A DNA stretch of 64,000 nt from Nocardia asteroides (lineage in GTDB: Bacteria > Actinomycetota > Actinomycetes > Mycobacteriales > Mycobacteriaceae): NCBI RefSeq assembly GCF_900637185.1, contig NZ_LR134352.1, positions 2,408,001 to 2,472,000 on the forward strand, written 5' to 3'. Positions 6,971 through 41,893 of the stretch are shown piece by piece. Both the position numbers and the translations under genes were made by a program. How positions within the stretch are numbered: the first letter of the stretch is position 1; every line of letters starts with the position of its first letter. Under the pieces are notes generated by a model. That model was not told where the DNA came from, made no database searches, and worked only from the letters and a program-made list of their open reading frames with translations.

Positions 6971-7033
6971 GTCCGGTTACGCCGAGAGCAGAAGAACCGG
7001 GTGGATTCGGTCTGCCGTCCCTACCCTCGGAGT

Positions 7034-7438
7034 ATGGGCGAACACAGCGGGTTGCGGGTGATTCCGGGCGGACGCGGCGAGGGGCGGCCGCGCCCCGAAC
7101 CGCTGTGGCGGGAGGCGCTGGGCGACCGCCTGCGCGCCTTGCGCCAGGAACGGCGATCGACTCTGGTCGAGACGGCGAGCCGGGCCGGCATCTCCCCGCA
7201 GTACCTGTCCGAGGTGGAGCGGGGCCGCAAGGAACCCTCCAGCGAGATGATCGCCGCGCTGGCCGGCGCCCTCGACACGTCGCTGAGCGAGCTCGTCGCC
7301 CAGGTGGCCGACGCCATGCGGCGGGCCGTGCCGGTGCGCGCGGTGGTCGTCGGCGAGGATCGCCGGATCGCGGCGCCGACGGGACCCGCGCCGGTGCGGA
7401 ACTCGTTCGCCCCGAACGCCGTGCTGCTGGCGGCCTGA
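7034..7438 (+). CDS. XRE-family regulator, PopR/ClgR-like, with C-terminal Leu-Leu-Ala-Ala
   Basis: The protein has 134 residues; I start it at ATG 7034. The helix-turn-helix lies at about 31-90. Its recognition region Gln-Tyr-Leu-Ser-Glu-Val-Glu-Arg-Gly-Arg-Lys-Glu-Pro-Ser-Ser-Glu (56-71) is very close to the ClgR/PopR class of Clp-gene regulators (family knowledge). The C-terminus ends Val-Leu-Leu-Ala-Ala, like the end of an ssrA tag. In Streptomyces, PopR and ClgR are degraded by ClpP1/P2 through terminal alanines (recalled literature). An accessory clpP pair lies 4 kb downstream (11380-12601). The natural proposal is control of that pair, but the target is inferred, not shown. Confidence 0.82.
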   Translation: MGEHSGLRVIPGGRGEGRPRPEPLWREALGDRLRALRQERRSTLVETASRAGISPQYLSEVERGRKEPSSEMIAALAGALDTSLSELVAQVADAMRRAVPVRAVVVGEDRRIAAPTGPAPVRNSFAPNAVLLAA

Positions 7439-7451
7439 GCCTGCCTGCGCC

Positions 7452-8054
7452 TCAGGCCCGCGCCGGGAGCGATTCGCTCAGGCCGCGCAGCATGTCGACC
7501 AGCGAACCGACCGGCATCTCGGGGTCGATCGCGCGCTGCACGCCCAGACCGATACCGAGCGAGAGCAGCTGCAGCGCGGCTTCCTCGGCCGGGACCGGCA
7601 GTTCGAAGCCCATCTCGTCGGCCTGCACCTGAACCAGCGAGGCCAGCACCGCGGTCATCGACCGCCTGCGTGCCGCCAGTTCGGTGCGCACCTCGGGCAT
7701 GTGCCGGGTACTGGTCGCGAACTCCACCTCGAGTGCCGTCCAGCCGACGTCACCGATGTTCTCGTCGGCCCAGCGGGCGAAGCCCTCGATGCGTTCGGCC
7801 ATGGTGTCGTGCCCCATGACCGCGGCGCTGAGCGATTCGGCGCGTTCCACGTGCACGACGTCGATGACGGCCAGGCCCAGTTCGTGCTTGGTGGCGAAAT
7901 TCGAGTACACCGCGCCCTTGGAGAAACCGGCCGCCGTGGCGACCTTCTCCAGCGACGTCACGTTGTAGCCGTCGGCCAGGAACAGGCGCTTGGCGGTCTC
8001 GACCAGACGTTCACGCGTCTGCGCGTGCGATTCCTTGCGTGTCATCCGGGCCAT
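7452..8054 (-). CDS. TetR-family transcriptional regulator
   Basis: In this 200-residue protein an N-terminal TetR helix-turn-helix spans about residues 10-56. It shows Arg-Glu-Arg-Leu-Val-Glu-Thr-Ala-Lys-Arg-Leu-Phe, then Thr-Ser-Leu-Glu-Lys-Val-Ala, and the recognition helix Lys-Gly-Ala-Val-Tyr-Ser-Asn-Phe. The C-terminal ~140 residues form the effector-binding helical domain. The gene is divergent from the patatin-monooxygenase-SDR operon, with only 60 bp between them containing inverted repeats. It is therefore probably the local repressor of that operon and of itself. The inducer is unknown, but the operon suggests a lipid or ketone. A second ATG lies three codons into the frame. Confidence 0.88.
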   Translation of the reverse strand: MARMTRKESHAQTRERLVETAKRLFLADGYNVTSLEKVATAAGFSKGAVYSNFATKHELGLAVIDVVHVERAESLSAAVMGHDTMAERIEGFARWADENIGDVGWTALEVEFATSTRHMPEVRTELAARRRSMTAVLASLVQVQADEMGFELPVPAEEAALQLLSLGIGLGVQRAIDPEMPVGSLVDMLRGLSESLPARA

Positions 8055-8060
8055 ACGCTG

Positions 8061-8107
8061 GAGTTTAGCAAATCGGGCTACCGCTAGAACTCAAATACCG
8101 TTAGTAT
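8061..8107. promoter_or_regulatory. Divergent operator region between TetR gene and patatin operon
   Basis: The 60-bp spacer has two nested or adjacent symmetric elements. GAGTTTAGC (8061-8069) faces GCTAGAACTC (8083-8092) with one inserted base, and ATAC (8095-8098) faces GTAT (8104-8107) around CGTTA. These are the best candidate TetR sites. The short spacer means both promoters must overlap them. Confidence 0.5.
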
Positions 8108-8114
8108 CCGAATT

Positions 8115-9065
8115 ATGACTACACGACGTGGCCTCGCCATCGGGTGCGGCGGCATCCTCGGCTTCGCCTGGACCGCTGTCGCCCTGGACGCCGTCGGGCG
8201 CGCGCTGGACTGGGACGTGCGCACCGCCGACGTGCTGATCGGCACCTCGGCCGGCGCCGAGATCGTCGCCGCGCTCGGCGCCGGCCGTACTCCGGCGGAT
8301 CTGCTCGCAGCCCTCGACGGCGCCCCGGACGCCGACCCCGTGCTCGCCGCCCATGTGGCCGTCGACCCCGGTTCCGTGCCGCCGGTCCCCGCGCCGGTGC
8401 TGCCCGGGCTCGCGCTCGTCGGAGCGGGCGTGCGCGCCGGTTCGGCCTACACCGCGCTGGCCGGCTTGCTGCCGAAGGGCCGCGGCGACGCGAACTTCCT
8501 GCGGGCCTACGGCCGGGGACTGGTCCCGCGCGGCGGCTGGGTCGGCCATCCGGCCACCTGGCTGGTCGGCGCCGATCGCCGCACGGGCGAACGGGTCGCC
8601 TTCGGCTCGCCCACCGCACCGCATGTCGACCTCGGTGCGGCCATCGCGGCGTCCTGGGCGATTCCCGGCTGGTTCCCGCCGGTGTCGATCGACGGCCGCG
8701 AGTACGTCGACGGTGGCGCGGTGTCGTCGGTCTCGGCCGATCTGCTCGTCCCGCTCGGCCTCGACGAGGTGGTGGTCGTCGCCCCGATGACCTCCGCGGG
8801 CGGCGCCCCCGCCACCGGCCTGAGCCGGGTCGAACGGCTGCTGCGTGCCCAGATGACGCGCGGTCTCGACCGGGAGGTCGCCGCACTGCGTCGCGCGGGC
8901 ACCCGGGTGATCCGGGTCGAGCCCGGCCCCGAGGACCTGGCCGTGATGGGCCCCAACTTCATGGATTTCGCCCGCCGCGCGAACACCCTCGCGACCGCAC
9001 GGCGCACCACCCCCACCCGCGTCGCGGCCGCGATCCGCACCGCGAACGAAGGAGCAACCGTATGA
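8115..9065 (+). CDS. Patatin-like phospholipase
   Basis: In this 316-residue protein the oxyanion loop Gly-Cys-Gly-Gly is at 10-13. The nucleophile motif Gly-Thr-Ser-Ala-Gly puts the catalytic Ser at 45. The dyad Asp is Asp199 in Val-Asp-Gly-Gly-Ala. All three elements of the patatin Ser-Asp dyad are therefore intact. Patatins hydrolyse acyl chains from phospholipids or other esters. The stop overlaps the next start as ATGA, so it is coupled to the monooxygenase. No signal peptide is seen, so it acts in the cytoplasm or at the inner membrane face. Substrate release for the following monooxygenase is a reasonable guess only. Confidence 0.9.
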   Translation: MTTRRGLAIGCGGILGFAWTAVALDAVGRALDWDVRTADVLIGTSAGAEIVAALGAGRTPADLLAALDGAPDADPVLAAHVAVDPGSVPPVPAPVLPGLALVGAGVRAGSAYTALAGLLPKGRGDANFLRAYGRGLVPRGGWVGHPATWLVGADRRTGERVAFGSPTAPHVDLGAAIAASWAIPGWFPPVSIDGREYVDGGAVSSVSADLLVPLGLDEVVVVAPMTSAGGAPATGLSRVERLLRAQMTRGLDREVAALRRAGTRVIRVEPGPEDLAVMGPNFMDFARRANTLATARRTTPTRVAAAIRTANEGATV

Positions 9066-10543
9066 CCACCCACCACGAGGTGATCGTCATCGGCGCAGGC
9101 ATCTCCGGTATCTGCGCCGCCATCAAACTCGCCGAGGCGGGAGTGCGCGATGTCGTGATCCTGGACAAGGCCGACACCTTCGGCGGCACCTGGCGCGCCA
9201 ACACCTATCCCGGCTGCGCCTGCGACGTCCCCTCCGGGCTGTACTCGTTCTCCTTCGCCCCCAACAGCGAATGGTCGCGGCTGTTCGCGACCCAGCCCGA
9301 GATCCTCGCCTACGTCGACGGTGTGGCGCGCGAGCACGGGCTGGCCGAGCGCACCCGCTTCGGTGTGGAGGTGCGCGGCGCCGCGTGGGACCAGACCGAG
9401 CGCCGGTGGCGGCTCGACACCAGCGACGGCGAGCTGACCGCGCGCTTCGTGGTCTCGGCCGCGGGCCCGTGGAACGAGCCGCGGGTGCCGGAGATCCCCG
9501 GCCTGGCGCAGTTCCCCGGCGAGGTGTTCCACTCCGCGCGCTGGAACCACGACTACGACCTGCGCGGCAAGCGCGTCGCCGTGGTCGGCACCGGGGCCTC
9601 GGCGGTGCAGTTCGTGCCCGAGATCCAGCCCGACGTGGCCGCCCTGCACCTGTTCCAGCGCACCGCGCAGTGGGTGCTGCCCAAGCTCGACCACCCGGTG
9701 CCCGGCTTCGAGAAGCGCGTCATGCGCCGGGTCCCGTTCGCGCACAAGGCGTTGCGGTCGATCGAGTACTCGCTGATGGAGAGCCTGGGTGTCGCGTTCC
9801 GCAATCCGCGGCCGCTGATGCAGACGGTGCAGAAGGTGGGCTCGGCGTATCTGCGCGCGGTGGTGCGCGACAAGGAACTGCGCGCCAAGCTCACTCCCGA
9901 CTACCTGCTCGGCTGCAAGCGAATCCTGTTCTCCAACAGCTACCTCCAGTCGCTCACCAAGGACAACGTGGCCGTGCACGCCACCGCCGTCGCCGAATTC
10001 CGCGGCAACACGGTGATCGGCGCCGACGGCAGCACCGCCGAGGTGGACGCGGTCATCCTCGGCACCGGCTTCCACATCCTCGACACCCCGCTGGCCGACA
10101 TCGTGCGCGGCACCGACGGCCGCACCATGGCCGAGCACTGGCAGGGCTCGCCCGAGGCCTACCTCGGCACCGTCACCACCGGATTCCCGAACGCGTTCAC
10201 CGTGCTCGGTCCCAGCCTCGGCACCGGCCACTCCTCGGCGTTCGCGATTCTCGAGGCGCAGGTGGACTTCCTGGTCTCGGCGATCGCGAGCGCGCGCAGG
10301 CGCGGCTGGGCGATCCTCGACGTACGTCCCGAGGTCCAGGCCCGCTATGTCGAGCAGGTGCAGGCCGCGCTGGCGGGCACCGTCTACAACGCGGGCGGCT
10401 GCCAGAGCTACTACCTGGACGCCAACGGCCGCAACAGTTTCAGCTGGCCCTGGTCCACCGGCGAACTGACCCGGCGGGTCAGCGCCTTCCACCCCGACGA
10501 TTTCTCCATTGTCAACGACGACGAAATGGCGGTACCGGCATGA
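9062..10543 (+). CDS. Flavin-containing (Baeyer-Villiger-type) monooxygenase, MymA-like
   Basis: The protein has 493 residues; I start it at ATG 9062, overlapping the patatin stop by 4 bp. The FAD Rossmann motif Gly-Ala-Gly-Ile-Ser-Gly is at about 11-16. A second, NADPH-binding motif Gly-Thr-Gly-Ala-Ser-Ala lies near 180. The Baeyer-Villiger fingerprint Phe-x-Gly-x3-His-x3-Trp is complete at 151-161. The protein resembles the mycobacterial MymA/EthA group, which oxygenate ketones or sulfur compounds using NADPH and O2. The adjacent SDR repeats the mymA-sadH pairing. The natural substrate, perhaps a lipid-derived ketone, is not visible. Confidence 0.9.
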   Translation: MTTHHEVIVIGAGISGICAAIKLAEAGVRDVVILDKADTFGGTWRANTYPGCACDVPSGLYSFSFAPNSEWSRLFATQPEILAYVDGVAREHGLAERTRFGVEVRGAAWDQTERRWRLDTSDGELTARFVVSAAGPWNEPRVPEIPGLAQFPGEVFHSARWNHDYDLRGKRVAVVGTGASAVQFVPEIQPDVAALHLFQRTAQWVLPKLDHPVPGFEKRVMRRVPFAHKALRSIEYSLMESLGVAFRNPRPLMQTVQKVGSAYLRAVVRDKELRAKLTPDYLLGCKRILFSNSYLQSLTKDNVAVHATAVAEFRGNTVIGADGSTAEVDAVILGTGFHILDTPLADIVRGTDGRTMAEHWQGSPEAYLGTVTTGFPNAFTVLGPSLGTGHSSAFAILEAQVDFLVSAIASARRRGWAILDVRPEVQARYVEQVQAALAGTVYNAGGCQSYYLDANGRNSFSWPWSTGELTRRVSAFHPDDFSIVNDDEMAVPA

Positions 10544-11376
10544 GTTATCCCCGCATCGACCTCGACGGCGCGCTGGTCGCGATCACCGGCGCCGCGCGCG
10601 GCATCGGCCTGGCCACGGCGGCGGCCTTCCTCGCCGAAGGCGCCTATGTGGCGCTCGGCGATCTCGACGAGGCGCTGGCCGTGCAGGCCGCCGAAGGGCT
10701 CGGCGACCGGGCCATGGGACACGTCCTCGACGTCACCGACAAGGCCTCGTACGCGGCGTTTCTCGCCGCCGCGTCCGCGTGGCGCGGTGGCCCGCTGGAC
10801 GTGCTGGTCAACAACGCGGGCGTCATGCCCAACGGCGCGTTCCTCGAGCAGTCCGACCGGATCGACCAGCTCACCATGGACGTCAATGTCTACGGCGTCA
10901 TCCACGGCATGCGGCTGGCCCTGCCCGGCATGGTCGAGCGCGGCTACGGTCACGTGGTGAACGTGGCCTCACTGGCGGGCAAGTTCCCGATCAAGGGCCT
11001 GGCGGTCTACAACGCCAGCAAGTACGCGGTGGTCGGGCTGACCGCGGCCACCCGCCTGGAGATGGACGACACCGGCGTCAGCGTGAGCGCGGTGCTGCCC
11101 TCGGCGGTGCGCACCGAACTGAGCTCCGGCATCGACTACGGCATCCTGCCCGCCGTCGACCCCGAGGACATCGCCGCCGCGGTGGTGCGCACGGTCCGGA
11201 CCAGGTCGGCCGAGACGGCCGTGCCGTCGTATGTAGGGCTGGCGGCCAATGCCGCCGGACTCGTCCCCGAGCGGGTGATGCGCCTGGCCCGCAGGGCCGC
11301 GCACGACGACGCCGCGATCACCCGGGTGGACGACCGCGTGCGCCGCGCCTACCTCGACCGCATCGAGAAGCAGTAG
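10540..11376 (+). CDS. Short-chain dehydrogenase/reductase, SadH-like
   Basis: The protein has 278 residues; ATG 10540 overlaps the monooxygenase stop as ATGA. The cofactor motif Thr-Gly-Ala-Ala-Arg-Gly-Ile-Gly is at 16-23. Asn-Asn-Ala-Gly follows near 90, the catalytic Ser in Val-Ala-Ser-Leu near 144, and Tyr157-x3-Lys161. It is longer than classical SDRs at the C-terminus, as in SadH-type enzymes. It probably interconverts an alcohol and a ketone that is substrate or product of the monooxygenase. The gene ends 3 bp before the convergent clpP paralogue, and I see no terminator between them. Confidence 0.9.
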   Translation: MSYPRIDLDGALVAITGAARGIGLATAAAFLAEGAYVALGDLDEALAVQAAEGLGDRAMGHVLDVTDKASYAAFLAAASAWRGGPLDVLVNNAGVMPNGAFLEQSDRIDQLTMDVNVYGVIHGMRLALPGMVERGYGHVVNVASLAGKFPIKGLAVYNASKYAVVGLTAATRLEMDDTGVSVSAVLPSAVRTELSSGIDYGILPAVDPEDIAAAVVRTVRTRSAETAVPSYVGLAANAAGLVPERVMRLARRAAHDDAAITRVDDRVRRAYLDRIEKQ

Positions 11377-11379
11377 GGC

Positions 11380-11970
11380 TCACTCCCGTTCGTGCAGCAC
11401 CATGTCGACCAGGCCGTACTCCGGTGCGGTGTCGGCGGTGAACACCCGATCGCGATCGGTGTCCCGGCGCAGCGTCTCCGGCGTCTGCCCGGTGTGCCGG
11501 GACAGGATCGCCTCGATCGCGGCGCGCATCCGGACGATCTCGTCGGCCTGCAGGATCAGGTCCGGGATGGTGCCCTGACCGCGAGTCGCGGGCTGGTGCA
11601 AGACGATCCGGGTGTGCGGCAGCATCGCGCGATGCCCGGGCGCGCCACCGGCGAGCAGGACGGCGCCGACCGCGATGGCCTGGCCGACACAGGTGGTGTG
11701 CACGGGCGCCTTGATGAACCGCATGGTGTCGTAGACGGCGAGCATCGCCGACAGGTCGCCGCCCTCGCAGTTGATGTACAGGCTGATCGGCTGACCGGGG
11801 CTGTCCGACTCCAGGTGCAGCAGCTGCGCGATGAGCGCGTTGGCGACCCCGGAGTCGATCGGCGTGCCCAGGTAGACGATGCGCTCGCTGAGCAGGTGCG
11901 AGTAGATGTCGGTGATGCGCTCGCCGCCGCGATGCTGCGAGACCACATTGGGAATGGTGTAGCTGGTCAT
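11380..11970 (-). CDS. ClpP-like pseudo-protease (ClpP2-type paralogue lacking the catalytic Ser)
   Basis: This 196-residue protein has the full ClpP fold. The nucleophile motif reads Gly-Gln-Ala-Ile-Ala (96-100), where active ClpP has Gly-Gln-Ala-Ala-Ser, so residue 100 is Ala (codon GCG). The oxyanion region is also changed: Tyr-Ile-Asn-Cys-Glu-Gly-Gly instead of Asn-Ser-Pro-Gly-Gly. The other triad residues, His125 (Leu-His-Gln-Pro) and Asp174 (Asp-Arg-Asp), remain. It is therefore probably a catalytically silent ring partner, like cyanobacterial ClpR, rather than a decayed gene, since length and frame are intact. A GAGGAG site lies upstream. It follows the active paralogue by 25 bp in one operon. 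Confidence 0.92.
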   Translation of the reverse strand: MTSYTIPNVVSQHRGGERITDIYSHLLSERIVYLGTPIDSGVANALIAQLLHLESDSPGQPISLYINCEGGDLSAMLAVYDTMRFIKAPVHTTCVGQAIAVGAVLLAGGAPGHRAMLPHTRIVLHQPATRGQGTIPDLILQADEIVRMRAAIEAILSRHTGQTPETLRRDTDRDRVFTADTAPEYGLVDMVLHERE

Positions 11971-11995
11971 GAGAACTCCTCTGGGACAGCGCGTC

Positions 11996-12601
11996 TCACG
12001 CCGTGATGCCGATGCGGTGACGGTTGGGGACGACCTGGTCGAAGGATTCGACGATGTGGTCGACGAAGCCGTACTCCTTGGCCTGGGCGGCGGTGAACCA
12101 GCGGTCGTGCAGGGAGTCCTCGTAGATCCGGTCGAACGGCTGACCGGTGTCGGCGGCGATCAGGCCGAGCACCGTGTCGACGGTGTAGCGCAGATCGTCG
12201 GCCTGCACCTCCACCTCGACGGCCGAGCCGCCGATCCCGGCCGAGCCCTGGTGCATGAGGATGCGCGCGTGCGGCAGGGCGAACCGCCGTCCCGGGGTGC
12301 CCGAGGACAGCAGGAACTGACCGGCGCTGCACGCCAGGCCGAGCGCGAGCGTCGACACCTCGCACGGCACCAGCCGCATCACGTCCCGGATGGCGAGCAT
12401 CGACGGCACCGAGCCGCCGGGGGAGTGGATCCACAGCGAGATCGGCGCCTCGGGGGATTGGGCCGCCAGGGTCAGCAGCTGGGTGATGAGCAGGGTGCCG
12501 TTGTCGTCGTCGAGCGGGCCGTCGAGGACGAGGATGCGGCGGCCGAACAGCTGTTCGCGGACCCGCCAGCTGAACATCGGAGTCTTGTCGTCGTGTGCCA
12601 T
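11996..12601 (-). CDS. Accessory ClpP protease subunit with intact triad (ClpP1-type paralogue)
   Basis: The protein has 201 residues from ATG 12601; a GTG 8 codons upstream (12625) is an alternative. The triad is complete: Ser92 in Gly-Leu-Ala-Cys-Ser, His117 in Met-His-Gln, Asp166 in His-Asp-Arg-Trp-Phe-Thr. It resembles the window's ClpP1 more than ClpP2, for example in Asp-Arg-Trp-Phe-Thr-Ala and Gly-Gln-Phe-Leu-Leu. It lacks a long propeptide. As first gene of a two-gene operon with a Ser-less partner, it would form mixed tetradecamers in which only one ring or only alternate subunits cut. The unfoldase partner is presumably ClpX or ClpC; neither is adjacent here. Confidence 0.92.
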   Translation of the reverse strand: MAHDDKTPMFSWRVREQLFGRRILVLDGPLDDDNGTLLITQLLTLAAQSPEAPISLWIHSPGGSVPSMLAIRDVMRLVPCEVSTLALGLACSAGQFLLSSGTPGRRFALPHARILMHQGSAGIGGSAVEVEVQADDLRYTVDTVLGLIAADTGQPFDRIYEDSLHDRWFTAAQAKEYGFVDHIVESFDQVVPNRHRIGITA

Positions 12602-12641
12602 GACTCCACGGTGCCTGGCGCGCACCGTGATTCGCGCCCTT

Positions 12642-12673
12642 CGCTGCTGTGAGCGGATCTGCTCACAGCAGCG
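12642..12673. promoter_or_regulatory. 13-bp inverted repeat upstream of accessory clpP operon
   Basis: The arms CGCTGCTGTGAGC and GCTCACAGCAGCG are perfect complements separated by 6 bases. The site ends 41 bp before the ATG of the first accessory clpP gene, where a promoter is expected. Symmetry and position fit an operator, possibly for the PopR-like XRE protein. It could also fold as a hairpin. Confidence 0.6.
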
Positions 12674-12817
12674 CAGCGCCGCCGGCTCAGCCCGCGGTCG
12701 TGCGTCGGAGCGGGCCCTTGAAAGCCGACATGGAGGAAGCTCCCCGTCGCAGCCTACCGGCGATCGACGGGGCGGGCGGAAAGAGCTGGGCCGCAGGGAT
12801 TCAGCTCACCGGACGCG

Positions 12818-12852
12818 GACCGGCCCCCGATCACGAGGATCGAGGGCCGGTC
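12818..12852 (-). terminator. Terminator hairpin after pepN
   Basis: The arms 12818-12832 and 12838-12852 pair over 15 positions with one mismatch around a 5-base loop, starting 11 bases beyond the pepN stop. It separates pepN from the accessory clpP operon, which reads the same way. Confidence 0.75.
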
Positions 12853-12862
12853 GCGGGGGTCC

Positions 12863-15454
12863 CTACTTGGCGTCGAACTCCCTGGCGCGCAGGGAGCGTT
12901 CGATGCCGGCCCGGCCTTCCGATACCAGGCGGTACAGGGCGGGCGGGTGGTCGCCGGCGAGGAACTCGTCGGCCTTGGCCACCGCGTCCTCGCTGATCGC
13001 CCAGTGCGGGTAGAGCCCGATGACGACGGTCTGGGCGACCTCGCTGGAGCGGCGCTCCCACACCGAGGGGATCTCGGCGAAGTAGCGGTCCACATACGGT
13101 GCCAGCAGCTCACCCTGGCCCGCCGGGGCGAACCCGCCGACGATGGCGCGGGCAGTGATGTTGGGGACCGAGTCGTCGCCCATCACGGTCTGCCAGGCCT
13201 GCGCCTTCACCTCGGCGATCGGGCGCGCGGTGGCCGCGGCCGCGGCCTGGCGCTTGCCCGCCGCGGTGGGGTCGCCCGCCAGCTCGGCGTCGATGGTGGG
13301 GGTGCTCACGCCGTCGGCGTCGATCTGGCCTGCCGCGGCCAGCGCGGTGACGATGCGCCACCGCAGATCGGTGTCGACGGTGAGCCCGCTCAGTCCGGCC
13401 GCCGCCGGGTCGCCGTCGAGCAGCTGGGCCAGCACCCCGGTGTGCCGCGATTCCAGCTTCGCGCCGGTCAGGGCGTTGACGAAGGCGAGCTGATGATCCG
13501 AGCCCGCCTCGGCGGCGCGGGCCAGCTCCAGCAGCCGGTCGGCGAAAGCGGGCCAGCCCTCCCGCTCGGCCCACTCCGGATCGGCGTAGCTGGAGATGGC
13601 GGTGACGGCCTGCATGAGCAGCCGCTGCACCACGCCGATCTCGGACTCCGCGCCGATCCCGCGCTGCACCAGCGCGACGAAATCGCGCGCCTTCATCTCC
13701 GCCTGGCGGGTCATCTCCCAGGCGGCCGACCAGGCCAGCGTGCGCGGCAGCGAGTCGGCGATGTCGCCGATGCGCTGTACGACCACGTCCAGGGAGTCGG
13801 CGTCCAGGCGCAGCGAGCAGTAGGTGAGGTCGTCGTCGTTGACCAGCACCAGCTGCCCACGCGGCACCCCGACCAGCTCGGACACCTCGGTGCGCCCGGT
13901 CGCGTCGAGGTCGAGCTCGGCGCGATGGGTGCGCACCAGCTTGCCGTCGACGTCGTCGTAGACACCGATCGCGATCCGGTGCACCCGGTGCTCACCGGCG
14001 CCCGGCGCGGCGCCCTCCTGCACCACGGCGAAGCTCGAGAAGGTCCCGTCCGGCGCCACCAGGAAGTCCGGGCGCAGGATGTTCAGGCCGGTGGTCTTGA
14101 GCCACTGCGCGCCCCAGTCCGACAGGTCGCGGCCCGAGGCCTGCTCCAGCGCGGCCAGCAGATCGTCGAAGGTGGCGTTGCCGTAGGCGTGTTCGGCGAA
14201 GTACGCGCGCAGGCCGGCCAGGAACGGCTGCAGGCCGACGTAGGCGACGAGCTGCTTGAGGACGCTGGCGCCCTTGGCGTAGGTGATGCCGTCGAAGTTC
14301 ACCTCCACCGCGTGCAGGTCGGGGATGTCGGCCGCGATCGGGTGGGTCGAGGGCAACTGGTCCTGCCGGTAGGCCCAGGACTTCTCGACATTGGCGAAGG
14401 TGGTCCAGGCGCTGGTGTATTCGGTGGCCTCGGCCTGGCACAGCACCGAGGCGAAGGTCGCGAACGACTCGTTGAGCCACAGGTCGTCCCACCACTTCAT
14501 GGTGACCAGGTCGCCGAACCACATGTGCGCCATCTCGTGCAGCACGGTCTCGGCGCGGCGCTCGTAGGACGCGCGGGTCACCTTGGAGCGGAAGACGTAG
14601 TCCTCGAGGAAGGTGACCGCGCCCGCGTTCTCCATCGCGCCCGCGTTGAACTCCGGCACGAACAGCTGGTCGTACTTGCCGAAGGCATACGGCACGCCGA
14701 AGTTGTCGTGGTAGAAGGCGAAGCCCTGCTTGGTCTCGGTGAACAGCCGATCGGCGTCCATGTGCCCGGCCAGCGAGGCACGGCAGAACAGCCCGAGCGG
14801 GATCTCGCCGTGGCTGTCGGTGTAGGAGTCGGTCCACTTCGCGTACGGGCCCGCGATCATGGCGACCAGGTAGGTGCTCATCTTCGGGGTGGTGGCGAAG
14901 GTGTGCCGCACCACGGCGCCGACCTTGTGCTCCTCGATCGTGGCGCCGTTGGACACCACCTGCCAGTCGGCGGGCGCGGTGGCCACGATGTCGAAGGTGG
15001 CCTTGAGGTCGGGCTGGTCGAAGCAGGCGAACATCCGCTTGGCGTCGGCGGTCTCGAACTGCGAGTACAGGTAGACCCGGTCGTCGGCGGGGTCGACGAA
15101 GCGGTGCAGACCCTCGCCGGTGTGCGAGTACTCGCAGTCGGCCTCGACGACGAGCTCGTTGGCGGCGGCCAGGTCGGGCAGCGCGATGCCGGTCGACTCG
15201 TCGTAGCCGCTCACGTCCAGCGGGGTGCCGTTGAGCACGGCCGAGCGGACCCGCGGCGCGACCAGATCGATGTAGGTGCTCGCGCCGGGAGTGGCGGTGA
15301 AGGTCACGGTGGTGGTGGAACCGAAGGTGTCCGACACCTCCGAACCGGCGCCGCGCGGCTGGTCGGTGAGGTCGAGTTCGATCCGGTAGTTCTGCACGGC
15401 CACGGTGGCCGCGCGTTCGACCGCCTGGTCGCGGGTGAGATTCGGGGCGGACAT
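12863..15454 (-). CDS. pepN: Aminopeptidase N (M1 family)
   Basis: The protein has 863 residues; I start it at ATG 15454 with AAGGAG 6 bases upstream, which removes an Arg-rich extension in the same frame. The substrate-binding exopeptidase motif Gly-Ala-Met-Glu-Asn is near residue 270. The zinc site His306-Glu-x2-His310 is intact, and the third ligand Glu lies in Asn-Glu-Ser about 18 residues later. The C-terminal ~400 residues form the helical ERAP1-like domain. It removes N-terminal residues from peptides in the cytoplasm, the step after Clp or proteasome cleavage. Its neighbours match the mycobacterial Rv2467 locus. Confidence 0.95.
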   Translation of the reverse strand: MSAPNLTRDQAVERAATVAVQNYRIELDLTDQPRGAGSEVSDTFGSTTTVTFTATPGASTYIDLVAPRVRSAVLNGTPLDVSGYDESTGIALPDLAAANELVVEADCEYSHTGEGLHRFVDPADDRVYLYSQFETADAKRMFACFDQPDLKATFDIVATAPADWQVVSNGATIEEHKVGAVVRHTFATTPKMSTYLVAMIAGPYAKWTDSYTDSHGEIPLGLFCRASLAGHMDADRLFTETKQGFAFYHDNFGVPYAFGKYDQLFVPEFNAGAMENAGAVTFLEDYVFRSKVTRASYERRAETVLHEMAHMWFGDLVTMKWWDDLWLNESFATFASVLCQAEATEYTSAWTTFANVEKSWAYRQDQLPSTHPIAADIPDLHAVEVNFDGITYAKGASVLKQLVAYVGLQPFLAGLRAYFAEHAYGNATFDDLLAALEQASGRDLSDWGAQWLKTTGLNILRPDFLVAPDGTFSSFAVVQEGAAPGAGEHRVHRIAIGVYDDVDGKLVRTHRAELDLDATGRTEVSELVGVPRGQLVLVNDDDLTYCSLRLDADSLDVVVQRIGDIADSLPRTLAWSAAWEMTRQAEMKARDFVALVQRGIGAESEIGVVQRLLMQAVTAISSYADPEWAEREGWPAFADRLLELARAAEAGSDHQLAFVNALTGAKLESRHTGVLAQLLDGDPAAAGLSGLTVDTDLRWRIVTALAAAGQIDADGVSTPTIDAELAGDPTAAGKRQAAAAATARPIAEVKAQAWQTVMGDDSVPNITARAIVGGFAPAGQGELLAPYVDRYFAEIPSVWERRSSEVAQTVVIGLYPHWAISEDAVAKADEFLAGDHPPALYRLVSEGRAGIERSLRAREFDAK

Positions 15455-40387: not shown

Positions 40388-40478
40388 GATTGCGCTGTGA
40401 GGGAGCGAAGCGAGCGAACCGGCTGCGCAGCGCGCCTCGCGCACAGTGCGATCGAGCGGAGCGAGATTGCGCTGTGAG
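40388..40478. repeat. Short intergenic repeat with GAGCGNAGCGAGC units
   Basis: The 14-mer GATTGCGCTGTGAG occurs at 40388-40401 and again at 40465-40478. Between them are related units of the form AGCGAAGCGAG and AGCGGAGCGAG in opposite or tandem arrangement. It lies between tig and its terminator. Similar GC-rich tandem units occur between genes in Rhodococcus and Nocardia (from memory), so this may be a dispersed repeat family. Confidence 0.55.
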
Positions 40479-40485
40479 CGAAGAA

Positions 40486-40584: not shown

Positions 40585-41184
40585 GTGACAATCAACCAGG
40601 CAGGGGTCATGACAGCCGCTACTGCTGGTCTCAACCTCAGTGATTCGGTGTACGAGCGGCTGCTGCGCGAGCGCATCATCTTCCTGGGCACCCAGGTGGA
40701 CGACGACATCGCGAACAAGCTGTGCGCGCAGATCCTGCTGCTCTCGGCCGAGGATCCCACCAAGGACATCTCCCTCTACATCAACTCCCCGGGTGGCTCG
40801 GTCACCGCGGGCATGGCCATCTACGACACGATGCAGTTCGCCGAGTGCGACATCAAGACCGTGGCGATGGGTCTGGCCGCGTCGATGGGGCAGTTCCTGC
40901 TCACCGCGGGCACCAAGGGCAAGCGTTTCGCGCTGCCGCACACCCGGATCATGATGCACCAGCCGTCGGCGGGCATCGGTGGTTCGGCGGCCGACATCGC
41001 GATCATGGCCGAGCAGTTCGCCCACACCAAGCGCGAGCTCAACGAGCTGCAGTCGCTGCACACCGGCAAGTCGGTGGAGCAGGTGACCGAGGACGCGGAC
41101 CGCGACCGCTGGTTCACGGCGAAGGAAGCCCTGGAGTACGGCTTCATCGACCACGTGGTCACCCACGCGAACCAGGCGAAGTAA
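40585..41184 (+). CDS. clpP1: ATP-dependent Clp protease proteolytic subunit 1
   Basis: The protein has 199 residues from GTG 40585. The triad is Ser100 (Gly-Leu-Ala-Ala-Ser-Met), His125 (Met-His-Gln-Pro) and Asp174 (Asp-Arg-Asp-Arg-Trp). The head loop Asn-Ser-Pro-Gly-Gly is intact. In mycobacteria, ClpP1 and ClpP2 form one essential mixed tetradecamer of two different rings; the same is expected here. clpP2 follows after 43 bp. A short propeptide is likely, with cleavage before Leu-Asn-Leu-Ser-Asp or nearby by analogy. Confidence 0.97.
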
Positions 41185-41227: not shown

Positions 41228-41893
41228 ATGGCCAACCTCTTCGACCCGCGCGCCGGACATGGCGGCTCCGCTGCGGGCCTCCCGCAGGCGCGCTACATCC
41301 TGCCGCAGTTCACCGAGCAGACCTCGTTCGGTGTCAAGACGTCGGACCCGTACAACAAGCTCTTCGAGGAGCGCATCATCTTCCTGGGCAACCAGGTCGA
41401 CGACGTCTCGGCGAACGACATCATGGCGCAGCTGCTGGTGCTGGAGTCCCAGGACCCCGACCGCGACATCACCATGTACATCAACTCGCCCGGTGGCTCG
41501 TTCACCGCGCTGATGGCGATCTACGACACCATGCAGTACGTCCGCCCCGACGTGGTGACGGTGTGCCTGGGTCAGGCCGCCTCGGCCGCCGCGGTGCTGC
41601 TGGCCGCCGGTGCGCCGGGTAAGCGCGCCGCGCTGCCCAACGCGCGCATCCTGATCCACCAGCCGTCCTCGGGCGGCGTGCAGGGCCAGGTGTCCGACCT
41701 CGAGATCGCCGCGGCCGAGATCGAGCGGATGCGCCGCCTGATGGAGGTCACCATCGCGCGCCACACCGGCAAGTCCGAGGAGCAGGTCCGCAAGGACACC
41801 GACCGCGACAAGATCCTGACGGCCGAGGAGGCCAAGGACTACGGCATCGTGGACCAGGTCTTCGACTACCGGAAGCTCAGCGGTCAGAAGTGA
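41228..41893 (+). CDS. clpP2: ATP-dependent Clp protease proteolytic subunit 2
   Basis: The protein has 221 residues; ATG 41228 has GGAG 7 bases upstream, better than the in-frame TTG at 41216. The triad is Ser119 (Gly-Gln-Ala-Ala-Ser), His144 (Ile-His-Gln-Pro) and Asp194 (Asp-Arg-Asp-Lys). An N-terminal segment of ~40 residues precedes the core and probably contains the propeptide. It is the counterpart of ClpP1 in the mixed ring. The Ser-less paralogue at 11380 is closer to this protein than to ClpP1 in the active-site segment, apart from the Ser-to-Ala change. Confidence 0.97.

Follow-up and report, generated by a model that had tools for sequence, protein, structure and literature searches.

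A PopR-type regulator and a catalytically asymmetric accessory clpP pair in Nocardia asteroides form a probable backup-protease circuit

The genome of Nocardia asteroides, a single contig of 6.98 Mb, contains four clpP matches, and all of them lie within the 64,000 nucleotides (nt) analysed here (NZ_LR134352.1, positions 2,408,001 to 2,472,000), which we call the window. Two are the housekeeping genes clpP1 and clpP2. The other two form an accessory pair, encoded on the same contig as a PopR-type regulator of the XRE family. The features on which the following argument is built, in coordinates of the window, are these:

6980..6991, plus strand: single box CGCCGAGAGCAG, 42 nt before the ATG of the XRE gene
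7034..7438, plus strand: PopR-type XRE regulator, putative ClgR paralogue of 134 amino acids (open reading frame (ORF), profile matches, linkage, structure neighbours)
7424..7435, plus strand: Leu-Leu-Ala-Ala C-terminus of the regulator, proposed ClpX-type degron (survey of tails against controls; the genome's own SsrA tag)
7452..11376, both strands: inserted cassette of a TetR gene (minus), then patatin-like, FMO-type monooxygenase and SDR genes (plus) (profile matches, locus comparison)
11380..11970, minus strand: second accessory clpP, ClpP4-like, Ala for the catalytic Ser (ORF, CLP_protease match, triad reading)
11671..11673, minus strand: codon 100 of the second accessory clpP, GCG (Ala), at the position expected for the catalytic Ser (alignment and triad reading)
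11996..12601, minus strand: first accessory clpP, ClpP3-like, Ser-His-Asp intact (ORF, CLP_protease match, triad reading)
12644..12671, no strand assigned: tandem PopR-type box, predicted operator, 42 nt before the ATG of the first accessory clpP (pattern scans)
40470..40480, no strand assigned: ClgR-type box CGCTGTGAGCG upstream of clpP1 (conservation)
40609..41184, plus strand: housekeeping clpP1 (clpP match; start taken at the ATG, with a GTG 24 bases upstream)
41228..41893, plus strand: housekeeping clpP2, triad intact (clpP match, triad reading)

The XRE protein matches the Pfam helix-turn-helix families HTH_31/HTH_3, its best NCBIfam model is ClgR (NF041677), and the solved structures nearest to it are those of ClgR (3f51/3f52) and 5woq, in agreement with an initial annotation of this DNA that had placed a ClgR/PopR-type XRE protein at 7034-7438. 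The same matches favour a rival explanation, according to which the protein is a second ClgR-like regulator of a general clp/lon regulon and its nearness to the accessory pair is incidental. Its score on the ClgR model is, however, 69.9 bits against a cut-off of 170, and a separate ClgR-like gene is present in the same genome (G000:C1:5519649, locus L006), whose neighbours we take to be a PspA-like ORF on one flank and, on the opposite flank, cinA-like and pgsA-like ORFs. Because of this separate locus, and because its score falls so far under the cut-off, the XRE protein is classed as a paralogue, a predicted member of the ClgR superfamily that is distinct from the genome's own ClgR. The cut-off alone is a strict test, since the genome's own ClgR, at 134.8 bits, likewise falls under it; that protein ends in LVKGM, without Ala-Ala.

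Linkage was surveyed by protein searches of 79 genomes, comprising the N. asteroides genome, 46 same-genus relatives and 32 genomes of other genera, the statements on the last group resting on the matches listed. The accessory genes, both CLP_protease matches on the minus strand (12601-11996 and 11970-11380), are found where the initial annotation had put two extra clpP genes, about 4 kb from the XRE gene; the gap between the open frames is 3947 base pairs (bp). That annotation had also staked its proposal on a genomic association between this type of XRE protein and clpP pairs, and the association exists: an XRE of this kind and an accessory pair share a contig in 45 of the 46 relatives, the only relative outside the count being G015 (78% complete), in which linkage is unassessable. 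In 43 of the 46, at most about 7 kb of a single contig separates the XRE match from the first accessory clpP, and in G025 and G026 the XRE gene shares its contig with the second clpP. Three of the 45 linked genomes (G008, G017 and G041) carry a divergent pair, with a first subunit 45-46% identical; these correspond to loci L047, L055 and L077, where the divergent pair is accompanied by an XRE of its own. Among the other genera, the convergent layout occurs in six genomes and a codirectional one with a single clpP in two (G060, G072), and in the remaining 24 of the 32 no linked pair was seen among the matches listed.

Regulator and second clpP usually stand tail-to-tail, and the gap between them has a median of 92 bp (52 convergent loci, window included), compared with 3947 bp here. 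The cassette at 7452..11376 is common to the window and its four closest relatives (L054, L068, L074 and L082), with 72-89% identity; among the loci searched, TetR, patatin and SDR matches occur in those four only, and an FMO match in one more. Since the gap is normally short and the cassette is restricted to the window and these four relatives, the proposal that it was inserted between the regulator and its target stands.

The predicted operator reads CTGCTGTGAGCAGATCCGCTCACAGCAG on the minus strand, each half being near-palindromic and the repeat period 15 bp. It falls inside the region (12601-12862) that had been proposed as the target of the regulator by the initial annotation, which missed the box itself. 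The S. lividans PopR site is given in a review as TCTGCC-3N-GGCGAATCTGCC-3N-GGCAGA, upstream of clpP3 (PMC9775585); the window box has the layout and period of that site, with variant half-sites. Together, the gene linkage and a tandem box that matches the layout published for PopR support the earlier suggestion that a PopR-like logic may operate at this locus.

A scan of the window allowing three mismatches returned three matches (12644-12671 on both strands without mismatch, and 19308 with three), compared with a mean of 0.06 in shuffled windows, of which 1 in 100 reached three matches. A reversed control pattern gave no match in the 79 genomes, and these two comparisons rule out a chance box. 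At no more than one mismatch, the N. asteroides genome has one tandem-box site; a looser 26-base pattern has a mismatch-free match also at G000:C1:6914476. With the same tolerance of one mismatch, 44 of the 47 same-genus genomes, N. asteroides among them, carry the box ahead of their accessory clpP; each has a single site except G029, which has an additional one-strand site with one mismatch. Eight of the 32 other-genus genomes have a tandem-box match, in four cases at an accessory clpP (G049, G060, G064 and G072).

A DNA-only scan of named genomes, blind to protein and overlapping in some genomes with the set of relatives, yielded at least 120 box loci, at 106 of which a correctly oriented ClpP-like match begins no more than 400 bp away. 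The 14 loci without one include nine titled as non-actinobacterial and five actinobacterial loci (L099, L185, L193, L205 and L213) in which no more than about 210 bases separate the box from the edge of the locus; for four of these five, with contig and record presumed the same from their fit, record coordinates place a clpP 130-182 bp from the box. Leaving out L213 and scoring L147 (clpP match of 27% identity) as a miss, the box is upstream of clpP in 109 of the 110 assessable actinobacterial loci among those listed, drawn from genera that include Streptomyces, Micromonospora, Cellulomonas, Nocardia, Amycolatopsis, Nonomuraea and Frankia. In Micromonospora (L101, L108, L119, L123, L128 and similar loci), the XRE gene lies upstream of a single clpP with a tandem box. 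In two Frankia loci (L116 and L209), a PopR-type box precedes an operon in which the second gene encodes a ClpP2-like protein that keeps its triad, and no XRE gene was seen within the stretch covered. In the window, positions 12818-12852 form a 15-bp inverted repeat, 93% complementary, between a long minus-strand gene ending near 12863 and the accessory clpP promoter; it is perhaps a transcription end, and the terminator scan did not list it.

At both the XRE gene and the first accessory clpP of the window, the distance from box to ATG is 42 nt. A single box is present 41-43 nt before the ATG of the XRE gene in 32 of 56 loci and absent from 24, its type being CGC..GCG in 21, CGC..GCA in nine and TGC..GCA in two; a freer scan (at most one mismatch) found a match in 37 of the 56, against 1.4 expected from shuffles. 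The box suggests self-activation of the XRE gene or its control by ClgR. That these single boxes are mostly ClgR-like (21 of 32) is a further point for a general ClgR-like regulator, but the box at the accessory pair is of the tandem TGC..GCA type, present as a single copy in all but one of 44 genomes, and clpP1 has a CGC..GCG box instead. Of 30 genomes, that of N. asteroides included, 26 have a mismatch-free ClgR-type box CGCYNNNRGCGAA upstream of clpP1, and CTGCYNNNRGCAG was not found upstream of clpP1 in the 30 (two mismatches at best); it is because of this conservation across genomes that the box at 40470..40480 is claimed, lone matches within the window being expected by chance. Considered with the low score on the ClgR model and the separate ClgR-like gene between its cinA-like and PspA-like neighbours, these observations leave the XRE protein very improbable as a general ClgR-like regulator.

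The XRE frame terminates in ...SFAPNAVLLAA, as the initial annotation had reported in pointing to a Leu-Leu-Ala-Ala tail. An Ala-Ala terminus is shared by 108 of 118 convergent-layout regulators (46 of 51 in the relatives, 62 of 67 in the named genomes), and a Val-Ala terminus is found in 4 of the 51 and 3 of the 67. By comparison, Ala-Ala ends 20 of 616 control ORFs of the same loci, which were picked by length and codon-position GC content and include clpP genes and possibly a few regulators with long open frames, and 2 of the 35 other coding-like ORFs of the window. Chance is ruled out as the origin of the tail by the comparison of regulators with control ORFs. The SsrA tag of the genome's own tmRNA is ADSNQREYALAA, with a terminal ALAA. 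Turnover of Streptomyces PopR by ClpXP1P2 has been reported (PMC9765437), and a review considers the terminal alanines the likely recognition site (PMC9775585). In the convergent regulators of our survey, the final two residues are conserved and the tail preceding them is variable.

XRE proteins are often repressors, and the tandem box lies just 42 nt from the start codon of its predicted target. Both facts would suit a protein that represses the pair from this box until some inducer relieves it, its Ala-Ala not being a degron. A tail conserved in its last two residues and variable ahead of them speaks against that account, and S. lividans PopR, whose site is laid out in the same way, is an activator according to the literature (PMC9765437, PMC9775585); repression thus appears quite improbable.

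The accessory subunits resemble different housekeeping partners. The first is ClpP1-like (46.6% identity to the genome's own ClpP1, 35.2% to ClpP2) and the second ClpP2-like (46.4% to ClpP2, 40.3% to ClpP1). Ser-His-Asp is kept in all 155 readable first-subunit rows (6 of 161 being unreadable), and Ser or His is lost in 107 of 125 distinct second subunits (1 of 130 rows being unreadable). In the window, the missing catalytic Ser of the second subunit had escaped the initial annotation. At the Ser and His positions, the broken second subunits read AH (70), SG (31), GH (3), GQ (1), SA (1) and AQ (1). In L089, Asp is also replaced by Glu. One of the seven rows with Ser-His-Asp (SHD) in the first triad reading, from L088, was not a second subunit but the single clpP of that locus matched twice, and was dropped from the tree and from the pocket and triad counts. 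That ClpP2-type subunits lose the triad as a rule is excluded, as housekeeping ClpP2 keeps SHD in all 27 text-pattern-readable loci of 30, that of N. asteroides included. The SG rows and the single SA row all belong to Streptomyces, in which 32 of 32 readable second subunits have a broken triad; His loss in Streptomyces and Ser loss elsewhere are, judged from these residues, different changes. A quick tree of the 125 distinct second subunits (from 129 rows kept), with the genome's own ClpP2 as outgroup, has at least eight changes between intact and broken triads, and the number of losses is uncertain because support is weak on many branches and long branches come together. The second clpP genes of L062 and L210 encode an intact Ser-His-Asp within Ala clades, a possible reversion.

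Hydrophobic-pocket positions mutated in Streptomyces ClpP2 are S94, Y96 and Y116 (PMC9765437), and the patch mutated in Mycobacterium tuberculosis ClpP1 includes S61, Y63 and L83 (PMC9067928). In second subunits, the middle pocket residue is Tyr in 130 of 130 rows and the third is Phe, His or Tyr in 129; in the 161 first-subunit rows, the middle residue is Trp in 81 and Tyr in 68, and the third is Leu in 122. This pattern fits a first subunit that would cut and a second that would dock the ATPase. A broken triad in 107 of 125 second subunits would also fit a decoy or inhibitor that keeps the accessory core or ClpP1 inactive, and a ClpP that disrupts ClpP1 oligomers has been reported for an ADEP producer (PMC12607617). 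Against a decoy stands the retention of the pocket Tyr in every second-subunit row; M. tuberculosis grows with a core whose ClpP2 is catalytically dead (PMC9067928), and S. lividans needs at least one of clpP1P2 or clpP3P4 (PMC9765437), with the triad broken in each of the 32 readable Streptomyces second subunits (S. lividans itself being outside the sample). We therefore regard the decoy as unlikely, and the docking role as the better account of the second subunit. The evidence bearing on co-assembly of the two accessory ClpPs consists of their operon pairing and these pocket residues.

What can be read directly from the DNA is the gene linkage, a box that occurs only once in the genome, the conservation of the tail, the loss of a triad residue from the second subunit and the make-up of the pocket. 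By every PopR feature that is testable in sequence, the predicted circuit is of the PopR kind, and we consider it highly likely that the window encodes a PopR-type backup-protease circuit with a division of labour between two ClpP subunits. As long as ClpXP1P2 is working, the C-terminal Ala-Ala would direct the XRE protein to destruction. Were the housekeeping protease blocked or lost, this PopR would accumulate, bind the tandem box at 12644-12671 and activate the accessory clpP operon, which is probably its only tandem-box target. The product would be a two-subunit ClpP core in which catalysis comes entirely from the first subunit, the second, with Ala for Ser and a ClpP2-like pocket Tyr, serving to dock a Clp ATPase. 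The steps that we infer are binding of the box, activation of the operon, degradation of the regulator, assembly of a mixed core and its division of labour.

A number of observations weigh against this scheme. Three of the 118 convergent tails (L069, L189 and L216) end in neither Ala-Ala nor Val-Ala, and the 20 codirectional regulators, mostly from Micromonospora, comprise five with Ala-Ala, two with Val-Ala and 13 with other termini. Because Ala-Ala is found in only 5 of those 20, the degron is not universal, and the codirectional layout may be controlled by another route. G008, G017 and G041 are without the tandem box and carry a single extended box, TCTGCTGTYGGCAGA, instead; the one-mismatch box matches of G053, G063, G066 and G074 lie away from accessory clpP genes, among the matches listed; and a scan for sigma-70-like promoters found none adjoining the tandem box. 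Eighteen of the 125 distinct second subunits, including that of the same-genus genome G024, retain Ser and His. Since the third pocket position is Tyr or Phe in 26 of the 161 first-subunit rows, and is Phe in the genome's own housekeeping ClpP1 also, the pocket contrast between subunits is a tendency and not a clean one.

The predicted circuit is distinctive in its fixed catalytic asymmetry, its apparently single-promoter regulon and its displaced regulator. It has already been remarked that N. asteroides and Streptomyces coelicolor each have one clpP allele without predicted catalytic residues (PMC9067928). In the portions of the openly licensed literature available to us, we found no paper linking triad loss to a PopR-controlled operon and no description of PopR in Nocardia or of different routes of loss. 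The PopR backup-protease logic would be extended from Streptomyces to Nocardia and other actinobacteria, and can be tested directly because the operator is specified and the regulon apparently consists of one promoter. More tentatively, PopR circuits across the Actinomycetes could keep back an obligately asymmetric Clp protease as a reserve and act as a sensor of Clp-protease poisoning, the active site of the docking ring having been disabled separately in different lineages (His lost in Streptomyces; Ser in Nocardia, Streptosporangium and Nonomuraea, Amycolatopsis and others). If this is true, a docking ring without Ser would not be acylated by active-site inhibitors, and the induced core would offer them fewer targets; through the ClgR-like box in front of popR, ClgR would prime the alarm from a tier above. 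Evolution may have built more than once a forced-asymmetry Clp core like the one engineered in M. tuberculosis, a possibility of relevance to why two-ring ClpPs exist and to what active-site ClpP inhibitors can reach.

Several known systems invite comparison. With PopR and clpP3 clpP4 of S. lividans, the window shares a predicted ClgR-paralogue XRE protein with a C-terminal Ala-Ala, two imperfect palindromes with a 15-bp period and an adjacent two-gene clpP operon, and with the Streptomyces loci read here it shares a broken triad in the second subunit. It differs in its half-sites (CTGCT/AGCAG, versus TCTGCC/GGCAGA in S. lividans), in the distance from box to start (usually 42 nt in same-genus relatives, versus about 130-200 nt to the matched clpP start in Streptomyces loci), in the residue lost from the second subunit (Ser here, His in Streptomyces) and in the four-gene cassette between regulator and target. 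With the ClgR-clpP1P2 regulon of actinobacteria, it has in common the regulator superfamily and the box geometry GC-N5-GC, whereas the genome's own ClgR ends without Ala-Ala (LVKGM) and has cinA-like and PspA-like neighbours, and the clpP1 box is CGC..GCG.

Among ClpP cores, the cyanobacterial and plastid ClpP3/ClpR system mixes a catalytically competent ClpP with a ClpP-like subunit devoid of the triad (PMC4673316). The accessory pair would similarly combine an active ClpP with a triad-deficient partner, and the second subunit, with Ala for Ser, is ClpR-like in the sense of a ClpP family member missing a catalytic residue. Unlike ClpR, most second subunits of the present systems lose one triad residue, and they are ClpP2-like in sequence and pocket. 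In Streptomyces and M. tuberculosis, ClpP1 catalyses and ClpP2 docks the ATPase (PMC9765437, PMC9067928), and an M. tuberculosis strain with forced asymmetry grew as controls did (PMC9067928). The split proposed here, with one subunit catalysing and the other docking the ATPase, would resemble that of ClpP1P2 in Mycobacterium and Streptomyces; the wild-type second subunit there retains its catalytic Ser, whereas in the accessory pair of N. asteroides the asymmetry is fixed in the sequence.

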